Source of the DNA: Apophysomyces variabilis
Taxonomy: Eukaryota > Mucoromycota > Mucoromycetes > Mucorales > Mucoraceae
Assembly (NCBI GenBank): GCA_002749535.1
Contig: MZZL01000387.1
Span: 560,090 to 624,089, forward strand
Direction: 5' to 3'
DNA length: 64,000 nucleotides
The notes under the pieces were generated by a model, which had not been told where the DNA came from, made no database searches, and saw only the letters and a program-made list of their open reading frames with translations. Shown here one piece after another: positions 6,633 through 23,664 of this stretch (positions are counted from its first letter, which is position 1; every line of letters begins with the position of its first letter). Both the position numbers and the translations under genes were made by a program.

Positions 6633-6715
6633 GGTAATTTGGCCGAGTTGGTCTAAGGCGCCGCACTCAAGTTGCGGTCTCGAAAGAGGCGTGAGTTCGA
6701 ATCTCACAGTTACCA
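6633..6715 (+). tRNA. tRNA-Leu (anticodon CAA)
   Basis: A complete 83-nt class II tRNA. The acceptor stem GGTAATT pairs with AGTTACC (one T-G wobble), discriminator A at 6715. The D-arm begins GGCCGAGTTGG. The anticodon stem CCGCA/TGCGG closes loop CTCAAGT with CAA at 6668-6670, reading UUG. A long variable arm (TCTCGAAAGAGG) and the T-arm GTGAG-TTCGAAT-CTCAC follow, with canonical A and B boxes. No intron interrupts the anticodon loop. No CCA is encoded in full, as expected for eukaryotes. Confidence 0.95.
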
Positions 6716-6716
6716 C

Positions 6717-9348: not shown

Positions 9349-12208
9349 ATGTACTTTACACTTGCAGCATCTGTGCTGCTACTTCTCGCTACAGATCACA
9401 GCTCCTTCGCAACGATTGTTAATCAAACAAAGAGCGGATATTTTCCGTCCAGCATGTTTGATCCAACTTCTGACGATTTATTACCTGATACATTTCAACG
9501 TGTATTGCATCCTTACCCACCAATATTTGCTGATCCAAACTTTGATACGGTTGTACCAACAAACTCCTGGGTCAGTAATCTGTTTTATCCGAGCAAGGAT
9601 GGTATGGCACCAACTACTCCTGATCCTTATATACTACGCGTTCTTGATGGCAATAACGGTTCACCGGGACTGTCTATTACTCAACCATCTAAAAAGGTCA
9701 GTAGCAACAGCCTTGCATGACGTCGTTAAAAGAAGCTCGCTTTAATTCTCCTAAGGTTTATGGTTCTTATCCTGCACAAAACAACATTCCATTCGTGGAA
9801 GCTGCTTTTGCGATTAATGGCGCTGTGGTAGATATTCGTGTATCAGCAACAGAATGGTCCGAACAAAGTCCCAAACAACAAATCACCTACTGGGACCACC
9901 TGGGTGCCACCCTCGAACTCTCATTGAATGATAATGAAACAATCCATTTTCCTATTGTGCGTGGCATGCCTTATGTCACTAGCATCTATGCCAATCTGAC
10001 GCCTCAGTTCTATACACAACATGCAATTATACGAGTAGAAGCTGACAAGACAGACGATGACCATTACACAGGTTTTAAATTCAAGATCGCTTTCAACGAT
10101 TCCCCCGCAAGCACATATCTGATTTATGCGCTCGGAAGCAAACCATTAAAGTTGCGCAAACTTGACAACTCCAATCTTATTGCTGTAGAAAAATACAACG
10201 GACCAATCAGAATTGCAAAGTTGCCGTCCGATAAGGATGAGGATCTGCTAGACGATAAGAAAGACGTCTGGGCAACAGGCGGATACGTAACAACAAATAT
10301 AAAAGACGACAGGTAGAGTATAAACACAGGGAATGATGAAAAGTCCTATTCCTTGACTGACCGTTTTCTGGTTAGCTCAGATGCCGAGTATACAATCCGG
10401 TGGCATACCTCTGGCAACACCACGTATAATGATCTTCTCACCTATGCTTATCCACACCATCTTCAATCACTGTCTCAAGATGTTAAACGTACCTCGCTAA
10501 GTTTGGAATCCGCAACTAAGGGACCTATGCTTGCTGTTCTTGGCAACACGTGGGCTTTCCAAGAGGACAACTTAAGCAGTGCTGGATGGCTCCCAATGAA
10601 CCCAGCTCCAGAACTGTCGACACGCAACGAAATCATGGGCGAGCTCGAAAAGGACGTTGGGATGGACTATGAAGCAGCGACCAACAAGTCTGACAATTAT
10701 TTTTCTGGAAAGGGGCTTCAGAAGTTGGCTATGCTTGCCCTGATCCTGAATAAACCCGAGCAAACCGAATTACGTAATCCTGAACTGGCCAAGACATCCC
10801 TGGATAAACTGAAGGATGTATTCACTATTTTTCTGGAAAATCGTCAACAGGACCCATTTTTCTATGATAAAGTGTACCGTGGCATTGTGGCTAGAGATGG
10901 CCTGACGCCGGATTTGGGCGGTACAGGCGATGCCAACGCAGAATTTGGGCACTCTTACTACAGTGATCACCATTATCACCAAGGCTACCTGATTGTTACA
11001 GGTAAGGAAATAAGAGAGAAAGAAGCACCTACGAATTCATCTTTTAACTTGAACGACACGTGGTGTCTGAACAGCATCTATCATTCATCATCTGGACCCT
11101 TATTGGAGGTCCCAGGATATCAAAAGATTTGCAGAAATTCTAATCAGGGACGTCAATAACCCTGTGCAAGATGATCCATACTTTGCCCAATTTCGAAACT
11201 GGGATTGGTTTGCTGGCCATAGTTGGGCAGGCGGTATTAAAATCGATGGCGCCTTAGATGGTCGCGACCAAGAATCCGTTCCCGAGGCAACTATCTGAAC
11301 GATACCACCAAATGACGCGAAAAACTGACAGCATCTTTTCTTCCACCTTTCGTTTTCTTCTTTGCTTTTAAAAAATTAGTCTGTCAACTTTTACTGGGGA
11401 GTCAAACTCTGGGCACTGGCTACTGACGACGTTGCGTTGCACAAATTGGCTTCGTTGCAGCTTGCCATTACAAAGCGGACTACCTACGAATACTTTTGGA
11501 TGCTCGACAGTAACAAGAACCGGCCTGTCAGCATGGCGAAAAACAAAGTGATTGGTATTTTTTTCGAAACAAAAACGGATTATGTAACCACATATTATTA
11601 CTCACTACTTGCAGTACTGATAAGGCTTTCTTCTTCATTATGTCTAGACCACATACTTCGGACGGTATCTTGAGTTCATCCATGGAATTCAACAGTTACC
11701 TATGACACCAGCACTGGCAGATGACATCCGTATACCTCAATTCGTAAATAATCTTTATGTTAAGATAGGAGCAGCAAGGCTTGCTTTAACCTTGCTTCGT
11801 CTCTCATTAGGTCTCTGAAGAATGGGAGCAGAAATTGGCAGCAATTGCCCCTACTCTGCAAACACCATGGGCCGGTGTTTTGTACCTCAACTATGCTCTG
11901 ATTAATCCATCAGAAGCATATCCGAAGCTAAGAAAGGTGGAAATGGACGATGGTCAGACCAGGTCATACTCCTTATATCTTGCTGCAACACGTCCTAATT
12001 TCTACAGACAATGTACGAGCATATCCATTATTCAAACTTCTCAGTCTAACAATTCTTTTTTTTTTTGTTCTTTATAGCGTTGTCCAGGGTTCTTGCGAAA
12101 CATCGTGGGAAATTTAGACTACTAGATCTAAAAGAACGAGTATTCCATGGCATAAAGCAATGGAAAGGGTTAAGCTCCGGGCATGATGCTCGTTACCAAG
12201 GATATTAA
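9349..12208 (+). CDS. Secreted GH81 endo-1,3-beta-glucanase
   Basis: GH81 enzymes cleave beta-1,3-glucan, in fungi usually for septum or wall remodelling (family knowledge). The ATG at 9349 opens a signal peptide ([21 protein letters not shown]). Exons as read: 9349-9696, 9756-10286, 10344-11001, 11075-11286, 11380-11583, 11648-11743, 11811-12012, 12078-12208. Family landmarks: [11 protein letters not shown] near the start, [51 protein letters not shown] followed by GRDQES (catalytic region), [35 protein letters not shown], and [10 protein letters not shown] near the end. All introns are GT-AG except 11287-11379, which needs a GC donor. The end is uncertain: if the last intron is retained the frame stops at 12077; if spliced it stops at 12208. 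Convergent with the large receptor gene, ~130 bp between stops. Confidence 0.9.
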
Positions 12209-12338: not shown

Positions 12339-15300
12339 TTAGAAAGACTTGACGTATGTACGGATAGCTTCTTCTAGCTCCTTCTTAACAACCGGTTTAC
12401 TGACGTATCCGTTCATGCCTGCGAAAACGGTTAACAGTGCCAAAAAACACCTTCTGTCAGACGATTTTGCTATTATTACCTGCTTGGACGCATTTTTCTC
12501 GATCCCCTGGCATAACGCATGCTGTCATGGCAATAATATATGGGTGTGTAGCAGAGTCGGCTAGCTCCCTCCGGATCTTTGTTGCAGCCTCCAGTCCGTT
12601 CATTTCAGGCATCCAGACGTCCATGAAGATCAAATCAAATGGCGTGCTTTCCGCACGCGCCTTTTCAACTAGCTCACATGCTTGTAGTCCGTTTTGCGCC
12701 ATGTTTGGCTTGCATCCGAGTAACTGCTCAAGCATACGCGAAAACACTTTCTGGTTTACCGGATTGTCATCTACAAGCAAGCTCCGGAGACCAAGCTGGG
12801 AAAGAGACTCTCCGTCCTTTTGTTTCACGGATATCTGACGTTCGCATCCAGGTGTCATGATAGCTATCGCTGTGGTAAGTTGGTGCAAACTCTGGAACAA
12901 CACAGAATTTTTGAGTGGCCTGGGAAGGGTCATGGCATCAGTATGTTTCTCTTTGCTTGTCGTATCTGCTGCCTCAGGGGCATGCAAATGAACTCGTGGA
13001 AGATGACCGTCTCTGACGTAAAGGCACGGAATAGCCAAATCAAAACGCGATTTCAGTTCCTGTAGTACGACTGCGCTTGATACAGGCTTAGGCCCCAGCT
13101 CTTCAATGATATCAAGGTTGAAATCCACGATAACAAGGGAGACAGCGTGCAAATTATCTCGCATGTAATCCGTTGCTTCCTCAAAACTATATACCTTTAC
13201 CTTAAGACCAGCGTTACCTAGTATACTACCCCAAGCTTTCTGTAGACATGGATTCTGCGTGATAATGATAGGATTCGGACATTTTGCTGCAAGTTCACCT
13301 AATCGATATTGATTTGCATAAGTTTGACCGTCTGTTTGCACTTGAAGTTTCACGCAGCAATAGAAGACTGATCCAGATCCTGGCTCTGACTCAACCCACT
13401 ATCTGTTGGTTAACCACAGAACGAAAGAGATAAAGTTTCTGAGCTATTTACCATGTCCCCTTTCATCATCCTACATAGCTTTCTACTGATCGCTAACCCA
13501 AGACCTACAAAAAGCTTCACTTAGAATAATTGCCATATATTGCGGCAATTCAACCTGTTCCGCCAAAGTTACGAGCTGTAGATGCGTCATAAACTTGAGA
13601 AAACGATTTGAACAGCTGTTTCATTTTGTGTTGAGGAATGCCAATTCCTGTATCTCTGACGGAAATGACAAGTGTCACAAGGTCATTAACGTCATCCAGA
13701 GTGGGGCAGCACACTAGGTCACTATCACCGTCCTCATGCTTAAGAGAAGGCGTATCCGACGTCTTTACAGCGACATGCACGACGACGTACCCTTCGGAAG
13801 TAAACTTGATCGCGTTAGAAAGCCTGAATACGGTGCATGGTTAGTGCTCGAGGAGGTCAAAGTTTCTTAGCTTACAAGTTAAGGAGTATTTGACGCAGCC
13901 GCACAAGGTCTCCGTAAACATGTATTGGTACATCGTTATCTATATAATACCACATTGTAATTCCCTTGGCAAGGAAGATGGAGGACAGAAGGCTCATGGC
14001 ACTTTCAATTGCAAAAGTCTATTAAATCAAGTAGCAAAGTTCTATTAGCCCCGACATGTTTATATTCGCTACAAACCAAATCTAGCTTGCTATTCTCCAA
14101 GACAAATTTTCCTGACTCGATCTTGGAATAATCCAAGATATCGTCTATAAGTGCCATCAAATGATTGCCTAATAGCTGCTATTAGTGGAAACAGTTGTCA
14201 ATATACATACAAAGCTAACCAGATGATTCAATTATTTCTGCGCATTCGTATAAATCTGGCGGAAGATCACTTTCCATGAGCATACGGGACATACCAATAA
14301 CAGCGTTCATGGGCGTACGGATCTCTGCGGGATGTTTGCTTTAGCTACAAGAATATCGGTATGTTCATACCATGGGACATATTAGCTAGGAAGTTCTGCT
14401 TTGAGGCTGCCGCAGCCTCAGCTATCTCTTTTGCCGCTTTCAAATCTTTTACAATCTTCGGTCAGTGCAGTTATTTATAATTGAATAATAAAGGTACCTT
14501 TAAGTAGCGCCTGAGTGCGAGTTTTCTCTTCCTCCAGTTCCATAGTACGTTGTTGCAGGTTTTCCGTCCGCTTCTTCACCAAGTTCTCCATGTCATTAGC
14601 ATATTTTTCCAGCTAATATGAATTGTCAATGCTATTGCTAGTCCGTCAAATGTTGTTACCATAATAGCCATGTTGTCAACCACACAATCCGAACCAACGG
14701 AATATGGATCTATTTCTTGGACTTGTGCCTGTCACGGAGCAGTTAACGTGTGCTTAATCAAGTAGTTGCGTGTCTTGCTTACAGCAATGGAAGAAACAGT
14801 CGGTCTGATGTCTGGGTCGCGTTGAAGACACTTTATGATAACTGATTTGATTCCGTCAGAATACCCGTCATGGCCTTCTGGTAACATCCTTGGATAGAGG
14901 CCTTCGTGACGGACCTGATTAAATATGCTTTCACAACTAAGACCTTGAAGGCGCTGCTCCATATAAGGTGGCTCCCGGGTTAAGATCTCGTTAATTATGA
15001 TCCCGGCACTGTTAATGTTACTATGGCCATGTATCCATTTTAGCTTGGTGAATGACCTTACCTATATACATTGGCCGCTTTGGTAGGATACGTCAGATAG
15101 AATCCTAGTGGTGTACACACAATTGATTCTGGTGCAGCCCACAGAAGCTTATCACTGGTTTGGATTACGTGTGTACTTGCATCGTATGATATCTGATCAG
15201 TCTTCTTGGGAAGAGCTGAAAGCATAAGTGGATCTAGCTGAGAGTGTCTAACTGCATCTAGACCATAGTCTGTGATCTTGAGTTCCCATTTTCCGGAAAC

Positions 15301-18300
15301 CATGCAAGAAGATGAGGTTAGAAACCTGTGAACCATGAACTTTGACCGTTGCAAGAATTCCAGACCTAACAAGAAAAAAGGAGTTAGACGCTGAGATGGA
15401 TTTAGCCTTCCAGGAAATCAACTATCACCATCCAGTAAATCGTGAATAAGAGAAAAGCGAAATATCCATGTCAATTCGATATCAGAATTAGCTAGCACTT
15501 CGGCCAGACTACCTTTGGCGCAGTATTCTAGCATAGAAGTCTTAGAAAATCCTTGCCAATAAACGACAATAAGGTATTCTATACCTTCGACAATGTAAGT
15601 ACGCTCTGGCTCAGAACAAAGACCAACGAATTCCGTGAGTTTTGGATAGCGTGTCTCTTTCATGAGTGCTATTTCTCTTCGCACAGTATCATCAATACGA
15701 AGACGTTTTCGCCCAATCTGTTTGATATAGACAGGGAGATTACGGCTATTAACAGTTCGTCAATACGCTACGGATAACAATGCGATTTCAGATCGATCTT
15801 ACTAGACTCCAACGGCATGAGCCAATTTTGTCCGTTGCGTCGTATCTTGTCCACCATCGCTATGAAAATGGTTATATAAAATATTCTGGTAAAAAGTTCA
15901 ATCCGTTTAAAAACTTACTGCAGTAGTTTCTTGTTTTTGTATATTCCTTGCTCGTTTCCTGCACTTTTATCGTGTCGATGTAAAGCGGATGTCTTCACCG
16001 AACTTTTCTGAACGACGACAATGTATTCGCCAGAGTTTTTACGTTCCGGTGATTCAGGCGCCTTACGTGCACGAAACTCCTCGGAAGGTTGAACAAGATC
16101 ATCAAATCGCAATAGCCAAGAATTGTCCCCTGCAAATGAAGTCGCCTTGCGATTCCGACGAACTTGCCAAAATTTTCTGAGTATAAGACCCACAAGGAAG
16201 ACACATCCCAAGGGAATGAATATGGCCATATAGACTTGCTGGTTGGTCTTAAATCGACTTTCCGTAAACGCTTTACACGTAGGATTGTTGCTGTTCGGCC
16301 CGTCTCCGCAGCGCACGCAAGCGGATGACCCTGGTAAGGCATACGTCCCTTCTTCGCAACGCATACAAGCGTTCTGGTTAGGTAGCCGTGAAAACATATT
16401 TTCCGGACAAGGAACACACTGTATCGCCGCCCTTGTATGGCCGTTATCCACACAGAAGTAATCCGTAGCAAGTTTGGTATAATAAGTACCCGGACGGCAT
16501 ACAGATTCAACTTTCGACGCAGATACTAAATTGCCTTCCCATGGCCGATGACCCACTACGGTTTTTGCAAGAAAAAGGTTGAACAACGAAAGAAAGCCAA
16601 TGGCAAACATGTTGGTGTACCTAGTCAGCCGTAAAAGAAAATAATTGAGCAGTTGTAGCGTCTAAAAGGCAACACTAACCAAAATGTTCGTACACGGCCT
16701 TCCAGATAGGCTTGCACCTGATCAAACAGGTCACCCGATGTATAAATGGCCGTCGTGTTTCTTAGGTAACCTTTTAACATACGCTAGGAACAAACTGTTT
16801 AGCCACCGGCTTCGGTGTATTTAGTACTTCCGCTACTTACAGTATTGATAATGTCAAACACGTATTCTGAAAGCGTTATATAAGCATCCGGTACGTAGTT
16901 TTTCTTTTCCAGTGTCATCAAAATATCACGAAATTCATGATCCATAGCTTCCGACGTAGAAAGCCGGATAGAGTGTATAACAAGGTTGCGACCAGGCATG
17001 TGTCCATGCATCTTTTCTTCAAGTGCTGCATAGAAAAGATCGCAAAACCCTTGATTGTTCTTTCCAACGTATTCTGCTATACATATCGGCGATACTATCT
17101 TGTCCGATGCCACTGCCTGTGCAACAGATTTTGCTAAAGAAGCTTTGTCTAGCTTCACACTAATGGTTGGGCTGTTTTTGGGGTCTTTCAGACCTCTATA
17201 TATCATAGATCTATAAAACTCTTATAAATCTTACTGGTCATCGGTGCCTAATTCTTCAAAAAGGGATTCCGTCTTAATAGAAGATAGATTGGTCAAACTG
17301 ATCACTGCAGGACTATAGGGAGACCATTTCGTTTCGTCACCCTTCGAGATGACATCAGCCTGCTGTTGGTTTCCAGGTGATGTCAACTCGATTTGGAGTT
17401 CATGGAGCGGTTCTTTTGAAAATATATCAGAATTAGCAATAAACAAAGAACTGGTTACACTTGCCAATTACGCTTTGCCGTGTCTTATCATAGGTAAGTG
17501 GTATGTCCGTCTAAGTTAAATAATGACATCTTCTTCTGTTTTCATACCTCGGCTCGGTTGAGAATAGTCCAGTTAAGTCTGTGGGCAAAATCCTGCGCAC
17601 CAGCCATCATTGCTGTGTTATATGTATCTCCCTGGGTGTTCGACATAGCTGCACTGATATAGGTGGAAGTTGATCTTAATGGAACCAGTTTTGACTTTTC
17701 GTTTTGTATGTTTGTGGCCAAGGTTTCGTTTGTGATCAGAATTGGTCCTGTTTTGATGGTCTGATTGACAAAAACATCATAGCCTGTGAGAAGCTGGGAA
17801 AGGAGAAATGCCGAGTACATTAGCTCTGTCTTTGTTTTGCGGTTCTTAGGATCTATACCCGAAGATACATGTAAAATACGGGTAGTGCCGTTTGGTAATA
17901 GGGTAGCTGAGAGATCGCAATGCTATCATTATGTTCATGGAACAGTTTCATCATATTGTTACTTCCAATATCAAAAATGGCGATTCCCAAACGGCGATTG
18001 CCATCTATTTGCTTAATGGCCAAGGCTGCATCGCTCACGATATCTGAAGTTATCTGAAGGAAAAAAAGAAAATAAGCGGAACATTGGACAATATCTTTGT
18101 TTTGCTTACCGAACCTCCAAGTGAAACAAGGGAATCGAACGAACTATTCGCCATAAAGTAGTCGCGGATTTCTGCTACGGGTTGTGCAAATGTGCCATAA
18201 TCGGACAAAGACAATACAGAGGGTTCAGTTTGGATGACACGACGAATGCCCGAGAGCCGTAGTTGACAGCTTGCATTATCAAGACCAGGGAACTGGACAG

Positions 18301-18897
18301 CAAGCGGTCGCGTGTACCCTCGTCGCCGAAGCTCCTGACCAAGCATCAATCCTGCTTCCTCATCATCCTGTAGGACTCGGGTAAGACCAAGTCGTTTAGC
18401 ATAGTCAAGACCGGTATTGAACACGATGATCGGAACATTTTTTGCAAGAGCATAATGAATTGCATCCAAAAGACCACCGTCATCAGGGATTGTCAGGATA
18501 ATGCCATTAACACCCTAAAAGTGCCTCTGATAAGCAATAAGACATATTGCTACATAGAATATACTATTACCCTGTCGACAGCATTACGAACATCTGCAGT
18601 CATTTTAGAGGTTGTATTGACAAGATGTTTGGTCCAGGTTAAATCCATATCAAGAATTGCTGCTGCGTCCCGAGCGCCTTGCTCAGGGTTATGGAAAGAG
18701 GAATCCATGGCTAAATCATGAGAAATCATGGCAACACGGCGTCTGTTAGAGTCACTAGCGCTGCACTCGTGTAGACGAAATGACGATTCTTGTAGACGGC
18801 CATAGACTCGAGTTTGATAATGAAAAGATAGTGCGAAAAGAAGGAACCATATCGTGAAGATCGATCTCCAGCAGTACTCCTTTTCGGATGGATGCAT
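12339..18897 (-). CDS. Receptor: tandem PBP ectodomain, guanylyl-cyclase-type kinase homology domain, histidine kinase, receiver
   Basis: One spliced gene (about 20 short introns, roughly 1,750-1,850 residues as I join it). Start ATG at 18897 gives [11 protein letters not shown] and a hydrophobic signal segment ([15 protein letters not shown]). Order: PBP-like lobe 1 ([34 protein letters not shown]; ~18720-17700); PBP-like lobe 2 ([20 protein letters not shown] to [14 protein letters not shown]; ~17670-16550); Cys-rich stalk (16540-16270); membrane helix [19 protein letters not shown] (~16220); kinase-homology domain (~15850-14770) with [15 protein letters not shown] instead of HRD, KITDYGL, WAAPE; signalling helix [16 protein letters not shown] (~14610); HisKA box [13 protein letters not shown], His codon 14374-14372, split by a 46-bp intron; HATPase N box [31 protein letters not shown]; degenerate receiver (VIVDFNLD); receiver with VDDN, phospho-Asp in FMDVWMP, AMTA and VSKP; stop 12341-12339. 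The kinase domain most resembles receptor guanylyl cyclases. One join (~17545-17460) has unresolved phase. Expected role: plasma-membrane sensing feeding a phosphorelay (inference). Confidence 0.88.
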
Positions 18898-20333: not shown

Positions 20334-20942
20334 TTACATGGTGTTCATCTGTCGCTTTCGGATCATGCCGGCGACCTTGGCTGAACGCAGCTCGCATTCT
20401 CTCCAGGAACGATCGTTCACATCACGGGCTACCGATTTCCAAGCTTGCTTGAAAAGACGAGCATTCTTCTTGATGGCGATCAACAGCTGGCGGTCTTCAT
20501 TCTCGGTCCATTCGCGGCGTTCCATGGCTTTTGCTTGTAAAGTTTTGAAGCGACCCCAGCAGCATCCACGAGAGCGATGAGGCAGATACGTAGAGGAAAT
20601 CATTGCCCAGGACAGTCCTTGACTGTAACCCTGTTGCAATAGATAGTCTTCAGCTGGTGTCCATGGAGTACGTGTTTGCGACGAGTTGCGTGCATGACGA
20701 GTAGTAGAGTGTCTGTGGACAGCAGGGCGGACAATAGGTGATGCTACTGGAGACATGGATGGTGAAAGGGAAGGAACAGAAGAGTAAGATGACATGGTAG
20801 GGCTGACTGAGGACACAGAGGAGGATGCGGATGACCAAGTCTGGTATGACTGGTGAGCAACAACGGGTGATTTTTGGCAGATGTTCATCACGATGGGTTC
20901 AACAGTGTTGGAAATTGGGCAAAGCAAGTTCTTGATATCCAT
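20334..20942 (-). CDS. Myb/SANT-domain DNA-binding protein
   Basis: An intact single-exon gene, ATG at 20942-20940 to stop at 20334, 202 residues. Residues ~1-85 are Ser/Pro-rich, low complexity (SSASSSVSSVSPTMSSYSS type), as in many fungal regulators. Residues ~90-140 hold a first Myb-like repeat (RTPWTPAEDYLLQQGYSQG..W), residues ~141-190 a second (REWTENEDRQLLIAIKK...W.SVARDVNDRSWRECE), with the spaced tryptophans and acidic first helix expected. It should bind DNA as a two-repeat Myb; the target is unknown. A good TATA box lies ~80 bp upstream. The absence of introns contrasts with its neighbours. Confidence 0.85.
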   Translation of the reverse strand: MDIKNLLCPISNTVEPIVMNICQKSPVVAHQSYQTWSSASSSVSSVSPTMSSYSSVPSLSPSMSPVASPIVRPAVHRHSTTRHARNSSQTRTPWTPAEDYLLQQGYSQGLSWAMISSTYLPHRSRGCCWGRFKTLQAKAMERREWTENEDRQLLIAIKKNARLFKQAWKSVARDVNDRSWRECELRSAKVAGMIRKRQMNTM

Positions 20943-21020
20943 TTCGTAGTAAGTAAATAAGTAAGCGAAGATAAATGTATGAGAGGGAATAGTTTTTAAA
21001 CTTCCCGGCCATCTGTCCCT

Positions 21021-21030
21021 CTTTATATAT
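21021..21030 (-). promoter_or_regulatory. TATA box of the Myb gene
   Basis: The minus strand reads ATATATAAAG about 80 bp upstream of the Myb ATG (20942), a near-consensus TATA element at plausible distance for an intermediate 5' UTR. Confidence 0.6.
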
Positions 21031-23664
21031 GCGTTTTCTTCGTTTGGCCCTCCTAGAATTGAATAAGATCCGACCGCACGGAATGTTTGTCAATGAAATA
21101 AAAAAAAAGGAGACAGGTGGAGAGGAAAAGAGCCTGACAAGGAACAAAAACGAGCTGCTTTGGGTATTTGATGTACTCGTCTTATTTTTGTGTTTTGATG
21201 ACGAACAAAAAGAAAATAAGGGCCCCTAAACAAAGACCCTCTCCTTCAATTTCATCACAGAGCCCTTACAGAACCCTCTTTTTGTTACGATTGCGCAAAG
21301 CTCCACTTCCCCTTTTGTGTGATGTCTCTCGCACTTTCTCCTTTTACGTGGCTTTCTACATGACCGCTTACCGAGTTCGTATCCGATTCATCTTATAACT
21401 ATTTAAACCCTCCCTCATCCGCTGTCTGTTCCTCCACGTTTCATGACTCCTTCCCGACGAGGAGGTTGCATCGTGACCGTACCTAAGGACGAAGTATAAG
21501 GGGTTCCTCTATCATAAGCTGTTTTCCTGCCATGAACTTCGCGAAAAGCACAGATCAAGGAGAGTCTGCCATTGTCCTGGAGACCTGGAGGGAGGGGTGT
21601 CACAACGTTGACTTTAACCATTTGTATGGACTCTCCTAAACCATATCAATGTCCATTAGTTAAGACTTAATACATGACAAAAAGAACTATGTCTACATTT
21701 TCTTTTACGATGCTTCCGTAAACACAAGGTTTTTTTTTGACTAGATCAAAACGAATAATAAGACAGGTTTGTTGTAGTGAATGGAAGTGTCATTGTTCCT
21801 AGAACAATAAAAAACGGAAGTCTCTTTTAACTGTATAATCACAGGGCGGGTTTCCCTTTTGTCTATGTAATAGAAAAGAAACGTGGTTATAAAGGTTAAA
21901 GGAGCGAATTTCTCCTACCAGTCGCGTGCGCTTTTTATGTGGCTTTCCACGAGTGATCGAGAGAGGGGAAGATACTTTGTGCCACGCGGCTAATATACCA
22001 AAAATCAGAGTTTGATAGTATAGCATGTAGTTTGGATAAGAGAGGATTCTCGCGCCTTTTCCAATTTGAGGGGTTTGATCCCTTCTAGTAAGGGTTGGGC
22101 GCGGATACGCAATGCCAAAAAGCTCGACAGTTATACAAAGCAATGGAATCAACAGTTGACTTTGAAGTATTATTGTTCACCCTATTGACCGTAAGCCTGA
22201 AATTTTTATTTTTATTTTTTTATTTTTTTCATGGGTTCTTCACCGACCAAGAACGATTCGTCATTCCATATCACGTTGGAAAGACAGCTCACATGAATAA
22301 CCTTAAAGCTTGGGTTACAATTCGGGTATGACACAAAATTTAATTATGCATCAAAAAGTAATCGACAGATCCGTCAATAGTACACGTACCCGCGCATACT
22401 GATATCACGTCGCGGAGAGAAATGTTTGCAGGAATCAATATTTACACTAGGTGTTTACTACGATGTTACCTAGCCTCACAAAAGATTTATCCCTTTTCCA
22501 TTTATTGACCGCAACTGTCATACAGCAATACTGCTGATTGGTTTCCTTAGGCGTCATTTAGGCTTATGATCTTTTCTTGCTATTCTTTGGAATGGATCAA
22601 AACAACTGGTGACGATACACACAATCGCCTAATCTGTGGCCATTTTGTCGTAGCATCACTCAACTATGTCTTACTTTCCCATTCCGTCCTAGCTTTGTTG
22701 AATCAACAGGTATATACTTATAGAGCCACACCTTATTTCGAACGGGCACCGGTTTCAAAGTCAATGTCACGCTTGGCATATGGGTCAATAAGACTAATCG
22801 GTTCGCTTGTGCGTTTCTGATTGACAGTAAGCTGGGAAAAAGGAAAATGTAGTTGGGACGTTTTTTTCTGGTTTCATTTTATGATGTAATATGTGCGGAT
22901 TCAAGTCTACAGGTAAGGATTTAATTTGCAGGGCCATAGATGTCTTATTCAAATCATAGCTTTTCCATTCCTTGTTACATATTTAATTTGTACAAAGTAA
23001 AGAAAAATATCTCTTGTTGGTTATTATCCAACACTCTACAAAGTCTATCTGATAATGGATGTGACCCTGTCGAACTTTTTCAGCCTTCTGTATAAGTCAG
23101 CAAACTTTCTCTCCGCTGGTGTTCCATAAGCGAGTAAACTTTACTAACCTGACGTCTACCTGTCACAGTTGTAGTAATCATGATGGAGAACCGTTTGCTC
23201 TCTAAATTCTGTGCTGGAGTCAGCCGGATTCTAGTCTTATGTTCCGATCGACCTAACATGTGCGCCCAAGGTTGCTGCATACAGTTGGTATCGGATATCT
23301 CGGATGACTTGGTTGACTAATGTTTAATTGACTATGGATAGACCTGTTGTATTCAACAGGCGCGGAGAGAAGGAATGCACGATACACAAAGATCGTCCAA
23401 CCAAACATTATGTACTGATATTTTTTTGTTACTAAGCCCTCTAGCCGGTTCTACTTATTATGCTTATCGCATTAGTTAAAGAAGTAGTTGCGCAAAAAAA
23501 AAAGGTATATTCAAAGTAAACAAACGGTCTCCATCAGAGGCCTGCATAATCATCCCCCGTTGCAGCCACGTGTCAAATAAGCGACAATAAATGTATAGTC
23601 ACATCCGTTCTGTCTTTAAAGCTTCTTTGCTTTTCTTTCGCATCAAGTAACAAAAAAAAAGATC
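21031..23664. other. Intergenic, 2.6 kb
   Basis: No recognised gene. Minus-strand ATG frames at 21621-21415 (68 codons) and 22152-21799 (117 codons), and a plus-strand frame at 22566-22820, lack any motif or family resemblance. Poly-T and poly-A tracts are frequent. The last ~150 bp before 23665, with pyrimidine-rich TTCTTTGCTTTTCTTTC, fit a fungal promoter for the M1 peptidase gene. Confidence 0.5.

Follow-up and report, generated by a model that had tools for sequence, protein, structure and literature searches.

Kinases of the receptor guanylyl cyclase (RGC) group have been called metazoan-specific, or said to have no members in the fungi studied, in PMC3019232 and PMC1420674, and a survey of 30 fungal proteomes reports no RGC (PMC2838846). 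In a survey of signalling helices, animal receptor cyclases are the sole proteins whose helix follows a kinase domain, and all of the fungal helices belong to Sln1p-type proteins (PMC1592074). Unprecedented membrane forms have been noted in early-diverging fungi in the main text of a catalogue of hybrid histidine kinases (PMC5285503). Here we describe a gene at 12339..18897 (minus strand) of a 64,000-nucleotide stretch of Apophysomyces variabilis contig MZZL01000387.1, referred to as the window. With a probability of roughly 0.77, it encodes a membrane hybrid histidine kinase that has the chassis of a receptor guanylyl cyclase and an RGC-type pseudokinase as its gate. The predicted parts and their order, the dead kinase-homology domain (KHD) and the histidine-kinase and receiver motifs are established on sequence grounds.

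Gene model and relatives

The coding region runs from an ATG at 18897 to a TAA ending at 12339 and, judged by GT-AG sites and reading phase, consists of 23 exons that join in phase to encode 1742 amino acids. Each of the 22 introns has the form GT...AG with consistent phases, and 20 of them are 46-65 nt long. The original prediction, made from the letters of the DNA alone, had read here a single continuous protein with receptor, KHD, signalling helix, HisKA, HATPase and receiver parts; this reading holds, and all of the motifs that it quoted lie within one spliced frame. Its figure of about 20 introns is corrected to 22. The spliced model is co-linear with the homologues P0001, P0009 and P0013. 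P0001, from Apophysomyces ossiformis, is the closest protein among the matches listed (93% identity across residues 640-1240) and is annotated as a single protein. Compared with the window model, its start is later and it includes additional stretches where introns were modelled. The model has two weak spots, both inside the second extracellular domain. The intron between exons 4 and 5 is 185 nt as modelled, P0001 is about 20 residues longer there, and the junction is uncertain, with alternative exon 5 acceptors at 17362, 17359 and 17386 that preserve the frame. The second is the 39-nt intron that separates exons 5 and 6.

The family was represented by 124 proteins chosen by similarity (the best 120 of 6642 matches plus four from the KHD search), which were scored with eight profile segments made from the window protein. 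A search for the same domain order elsewhere had been proposed along with the original prediction, and 90 of the 124 relatives carry all eight segments in that order; no order violation was seen (0/124). The KHD, signalling-helix and HisKA segments occur in one chain in 122 of the 124 predicted proteins, among them P0121, which has no H-box. The listed genera are Mucorales or Mortierellales, and among the matches listed, relatives occur across these two groups of early-branching fungi.

Could two or three neighbouring genes, encoding a secreted periplasmic-binding-protein (PBP) type protein, a pseudokinase and a hybrid histidine kinase, have been merged by an over-long splice model? Several observations speak for such a merger and so weigh against our interpretation. 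Short PBP-only gene models exist in six named Mucorales (Apophysomyces BC1034, Syncephalastrum, Benjaminiella, Mycotypha, Circinella umbellata and Parasitella), and in Benjaminiella (P0140, P0004) and Mycotypha (P0141, P0023) the PBP-only model and the model with KHD and histidine kinase lie on contigs of equal length. The first PBP segment is missing in 13/124 relatives, the exon 4/5 junction is imperfect, and the splice model is itself a sequence-based prediction. Against this stand the in-phase GT-AG introns (22/22) and a spacing from KHD through helix to HisKA that is constant in 120/122 measurable rows. Separate genes are unlikely because 122/124 relatives carry KHD, helix and HisKA in one chain and 90/124 carry all eight segments in one chain and in the same order. 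The PBP-only models may reflect annotation splitting, real separation being less likely, and we consider a merger of neighbouring genes very improbable.

Kinship and catalytic state of the kinase-homology domain

The KHD is encoded at 14714..15810 (minus strand; residues 838-1108, exons 9-14), and its assignment as an RGC-type pseudokinase draws on Pfam, similarity searches, a tree and the catalytic residues. Pfam places PK_Tyr_Ser-Thr at residues 842-1105 with 90.5 bits, over the cut-off. When the KHD plus helix was compared with the PDB, ANP receptor 1 (GC-A) scored 143 bits and guanylyl cyclase C 68 bits, against at most 54 bits for ordinary kinases. A database search with the KHD, which took in proteins of about 365-1160 amino acids, returned nine rows of the fungal family, then nine of receptor-cyclase type (E-values 3e-34 to 6e-24) and then four other kinases (4e-7 to 2e-4). 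Six of the receptor-cyclase-type rows are named, and all six are from animals; the cyclase domain is listed in 8/9. In a tree of 25 of the 125 family rows, fungal and receptor-cyclase KHDs were separated from seven other kinases with support of 100/98. Sampling of this outgroup was thin: one of three fetched genome stretches entered the tree, and two were left out because their frames were short. The KHD thus combines a catalytically impaired fold with closest kinship to RGC KHDs among the kinases compared, these seven included, which places it in the RGC pseudokinase group.

These data bear on whether the KHD might instead have begun as an ordinary TKL-type kinase and converged on the receptor cyclases as it decayed. 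Fold comparison by itself does not separate the KHD from RIPK2 or BRAF, and the seven outgroup rows leave such an origin some room; the scores, the E-values and the 100/98 split argue against it, as does the extension of the homology into the signalling helix. A tree constrained to group LIM kinases, two fungal C1-kinases and the KHD family together was rejected (p-AU 0.026; this grouping was named after the tree had been seen). A juxtamembrane motif of the W-x-L type was found in 118/124 family rows and, with a stricter pattern, in 5/8 tested receptor-cyclase rows. Convergence is accordingly a very unlikely origin, and assignment to the ordinary kinases was rejected by bit scores, E-values, tree and constrained-tree test. 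The receptor-cyclase type of the KHD had been part of the original prediction, and a grouping with ordinary kinases, named there in advance as the outcome that would speak against it, appeared in none of these analyses.

What the original prediction lacked was the absence of kinase catalytic residues. At least one of the VAIK Lys, the HRD Asp and the DFG Asp is replaced in 125/125 KHD rows. At the position of the DFG Phe, Tyr is found in 119/125 family rows and in 9/9 receptor-cyclase rows, and Phe in 4/4 ordinary kinases. It is most unlikely that the domain retains Ser/Thr or Tyr kinase activity, which would make the protein a dual-kinase receptor: the Mucorales rows do keep the VAIK Lys (28/33) and the DFG Asp (26/33), which speaks for activity, but the HRD Asp occurs in 0/32 of them (one further row is gapped there) and no row of the 125 has all three residues. 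Nucleotide binding by the KHD is conceivable because the Mucorales mostly keep the VAIK Lys and the DFG Asp. The Mortierellales KHDs fall into two patterns of decay, one in which the Lys is kept and the HRD Asp lost and one in which Arg replaces the Lys and the HRD Asp is mostly kept; these are perhaps two old paralogues.

The assembly (38.7 Mb, 126 contigs) was also searched exon by exon, and no other place scored above 31 bits for the KHD, a count that is a lower bound. One copy of the gene was found in this genome, again as a lower bound.

In the full tree one nematode row joins the fungal clade weakly (83/53). When six long rows were omitted, receptor cyclases (seven rows) and fungi (24 rows) each made up one side of a branch (90/67 and 97/96, respectively), and a single receptor-cyclase clade was not rejected (p-AU 0.33). 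The nematode row and the reported absence of RGC kinases from yeast, Dictyostelium and one oomycete (PMC3019232, PMC1420674) speak for a transfer of KHD and helix from an animal to Mucoromycota, where they would then have been joined to a fungal histidine kinase, rather than for inheritance from a common ancestor of animals and fungi; the results without the long rows speak against it. We regard transfer as unlikely, if far from negligible. The tree results fit either sister groups by descent or an old transfer and decide neither. We would give even odds that the chassis of RGC pseudokinase and signalling helix predates animals and that its output was exchanged, with a cyclase in animals and a histidine kinase in Mucoromycota. 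If the chassis is older than animals, the RGC kinase group would not be metazoan-specific, and the KHD would be a gate independent of its output.

Signalling helix, histidine-kinase output and ectodomain

The alignment with receptor cyclases runs past the KHD into a signalling helix with an RT signature, encoded at 14423..14609 (minus strand; residues 1128-1172, exons 15-16); in P0125 the stretch there reads DNMVGMLEKYANNLEELVEERTQQL. RT is present in 123/123 rows with letters at this place, two rows being gapped, and it is followed in the window protein as in the receptor cyclases by a segment of the EK-x-x-T-x-x-LL type. The LL pair lies 20 residues from the T of RT in 116/123 family rows (the pattern missed seven) and 13 residues from it in 8/8 receptor-cyclase rows, a difference that, read from the alignment, is one extra heptad in the predicted fungal helix. 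Past the LL segment the receptor cyclases enter the cyclase, and the fungal proteins enter HisKA. The T of RT lies 47 residues from the phospho-accepting His in 120/122 measurable rows; in three further rows either the T or the His is missing. The outliers are P0101, with 61 residues (two extra heptads), and P0007, with 64, where a gene-model error may be the cause. In the model of P0002 one 89-residue helix (384-472) joins KHD to HisKA with moderate confidence (pLDDT mostly 55-73, pTM 0.50). A helix of about 40 residues with an ERT-type signature between two signalling domains marks the S-helix class, to which the window protein, reading KRT, belongs. A cyclase-type signalling helix with no cyclase after it had been predicted, and this is what the alignment and the fixed spacing to HisKA bear out.

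HisKA, with the H-box SHEIRTP, is encoded at 14110..14401 (residues 1180-1244; 71.4 bits), HATPase_c, with N, G1 and G2 motifs, at 13342..13913 (residues 1291-1429; 90.7 bits), and the receiver (Response_reg), with DD, phospho-acceptor D and K motifs, at 12360..12780 (residues 1617-1736; 87.4 bits), all on the minus strand. Each is over its Pfam cut-off, and their presence in one chain identifies a hybrid histidine kinase. All seven motif patterns, from the phospho-His and the ATP boxes to DD, D and K, are found in the window protein, so that the expectation of a full set of catalytic motifs was borne out. Strict patterns applied to the relatives recovered the H-box in 122/123, the N box in 80/117, G1 in 79/117 and G2 in 114/117, and in their receivers DD in 108/108, D in 72/108 and K in 105/108. 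Because such patterns missed motifs in several relatives, we relied for conservation on alignment A2 (53/124 relatives, picked for complete C-termini), in which all seven are invariant columns. Within exon 20 (13555-13823), FSQVYDAST stands where P0009 and P0013 have FSQVDAST; the extra F-box-region residue is also found in A. ossiformis P0001.

The class III cyclase family PF00211 is absent from the window protein and from the Pfam lists of the 120 relatives listed. Classification as a receptor guanylyl cyclase was rejected, since the protein has neither a C-terminal cyclase domain nor an ANF_receptor ectodomain. The genome's class III cyclases lie at two places on other contigs, with no KHD match there; HPt was likewise found at two places, and of the 19 receiver matches some are exons of one gene. 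A sensor-domain scan of its other histidine kinases gave two loci with HAMP arrays and nothing clear in eight other open reading frames. The two loci, L029 (1517-6226) and L030 (3937-7320), have 16 and 10 HAMP stretches, respectively, in one open frame.

The predicted extracellular part is more elaborate than the ligand-binding region first proposed: Peripla_BP was among the families then suggested for a search, and the region is now read as a pair of PBP-like domains followed by a Cys-rich module. A putative signal peptide (18799..18897, minus strand, as are all features below up to the membrane helix; residues 1-33) is moderately hydrophobic, with a best 19-residue Kyte-Doolittle mean of 1.2. 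It is followed by the first PBP-type domain, PBP1 (17686..18744, residues 52-345, exons 1-4), in which Peripla_BP_4 matches residues 66-304 of the spliced protein with 53.7 bits, over the cut-off. PBP1 of the homologue P0120 is akin to CUT2 monosaccharide-binding proteins, with a match to 4ru1; the PBP type I fold and this similarity, Peripla_BP_4 in the window protein and 4ru1 via P0120, place the domain with the CUT2-type PBPs, and the ligand of the predicted sensor is perhaps sugar-like. A search for prokaryotic kin of the domain, in which the 7999 candidates with the most shared words were scored, gave 13 proteins, and the six with names are all from Mucorales. An exon-by-exon search of the genome with Peripla_BP_4 gave only this gene, beneath the family cut-off, a count that is a lower bound.

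The second, diverged PBP-like domain, ECTO2 (16485..17685, residues 346-632, exons 4-8), has no family match in the Pfam scan of the spliced protein and no separate match in the VIA-align comparison. Its assignment comes from a profile comparison of PBP1 with ECTO2 (probability 90.6%, E 1.3e-6, 167 columns) and from the AlphaFold model of P0120, in which the alternation of strand and helix occurs twice. The Cys-rich module (16266..16484, residues 633-705) contains nine Cys columns, C673 to C746 in P0120 numbering, that are at least 90% conserved in alignment A1 (56 rows). NCD3G matches it only beneath its cut-off; of the families suggested for a domain search, Peripla_BP_4, PK_Tyr_Ser-Thr, HisKA, HATPase_c and Response_reg were recovered. 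The transmembrane helix (16170..16235, residues 716-737) was assigned from hydrophobicity: the 19-residue window at 716 is the maximum of the protein (mean 2.6), directly ahead of the kinase part, and 112/114 relatives with both flanking segments have a window of mean at least 1.6 at this place. A second hydrophobic window at 591-610 (mean 1.87) most probably forms a helix within ECTO2, as judged from the P0120 model, a second membrane pass being the less likely reading.

Around the gene, a convergent neighbour at 10317-11159 (plus strand) has a frame matching both glycosyl hydrolase family 81 domains, a frame with two Myb-type DNA-binding matches lies upstream on the same strand (20334-21089, minus strand), and a tRNA-Leu (CAA) gene lies at 6633-6716 (plus strand).

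Proposed signal path and comparison with known systems

We propose that a small ligand, perhaps sugar-like, would close the PBP domain and so rearrange a receptor dimer. By analogy with the receptor cyclases, whose KHD has been called a negative regulatory element (PMC1435932), the dead KHD may act as an allosteric gate. Movement of its C-lobe would pass through the coiled coil of the signalling helix to the HisKA helices and switch autophosphorylation; deletions and mutations in Sln1p and in receptor cyclases offer a precedent for such transmission (PMC1592074). The extra heptad would keep the register of the coiled coil while the output domain differs, and phosphate could then pass from HisKA first to the receiver at the C-terminus, next to an HPt protein and finally to a response regulator.

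How new is this arrangement? The literature searched held no description of this receptor class, the principal survey of histidine kinases in eukaryotes (Kabbara et al. 2019) lying outside its coverage, and the main texts of two hybrid histidine kinase catalogues (PMC5285503, PMC8510515), figures being outside the coverage, do not contain "periplasmic" or "guanyl". Two points detract from its novelty. Members of the family already bear the database labels 'histidine kinase', 'guanylate cyclase' and 'RGC/RGC protein kinase', so that the class proposed as unnoticed is undescribed in the literature searched and yet labelled in databases. Also, the notion that one helix can couple to either a cyclase or a histidine kinase was proposed in 2006 (PMC1592074). 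The findings nevertheless contradict two printed views, namely, that RGC-group kinase domains occur only in animals (PMC3019232, PMC1420674 and PMC2838846) and that the pairing of kinase and signalling helix is confined to animal receptor cyclases (PMC1592074). The protein offers a natural domain swap for studying the gating of an output by a pseudokinase. Mucoromycota also gain a candidate family of nutrient or signal receptors in a type of pathway that PMC8510515 describes as absent from animals.

In fungal group X, too, a kinase-like domain precedes the hybrid histidine kinase in the chain, going by the domain abbreviations in PMC4965123. Unlike the members of that group, the window protein has no GAF match, is a predicted membrane receptor and has a KHD that groups with RGC. 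Sln1p-type kinases are likewise membrane hybrid histidine kinases in which the dimerisation domain follows a signalling helix (PMC1592074, for Sln1p). The window protein differs in having no HAMP match, a KHD between membrane and helix, and a PBP ectodomain. The bacterial PBP-coupled kinases XylFII-LytS and LuxPQ resemble it in that a sensor of PBP fold feeds into a histidine kinase, and P0120 has XylFII among its matches. In these systems the PBP is a separate protein, whereas in the window protein it is fused and a pseudokinase stands between. The animal receptor guanylyl cyclases, such as the ANP receptor (GC-A) and the speract receptor, have in common with the fungal protein a binding ectodomain, a membrane helix and an RGC-type KHD with a DYG-type motif and no HRD Asp, followed by the RT signature and the shared LL segment. 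The fungal ectodomain is of the Peripla_BP_4 type and doubled, in contrast to ANF_receptor, which is listed in 8/9 receptor-cyclase rows, and the fungal helix is one heptad longer. The animal proteins end in a cyclase, and the fungal protein ends in HisKA, HATPase and receiver.

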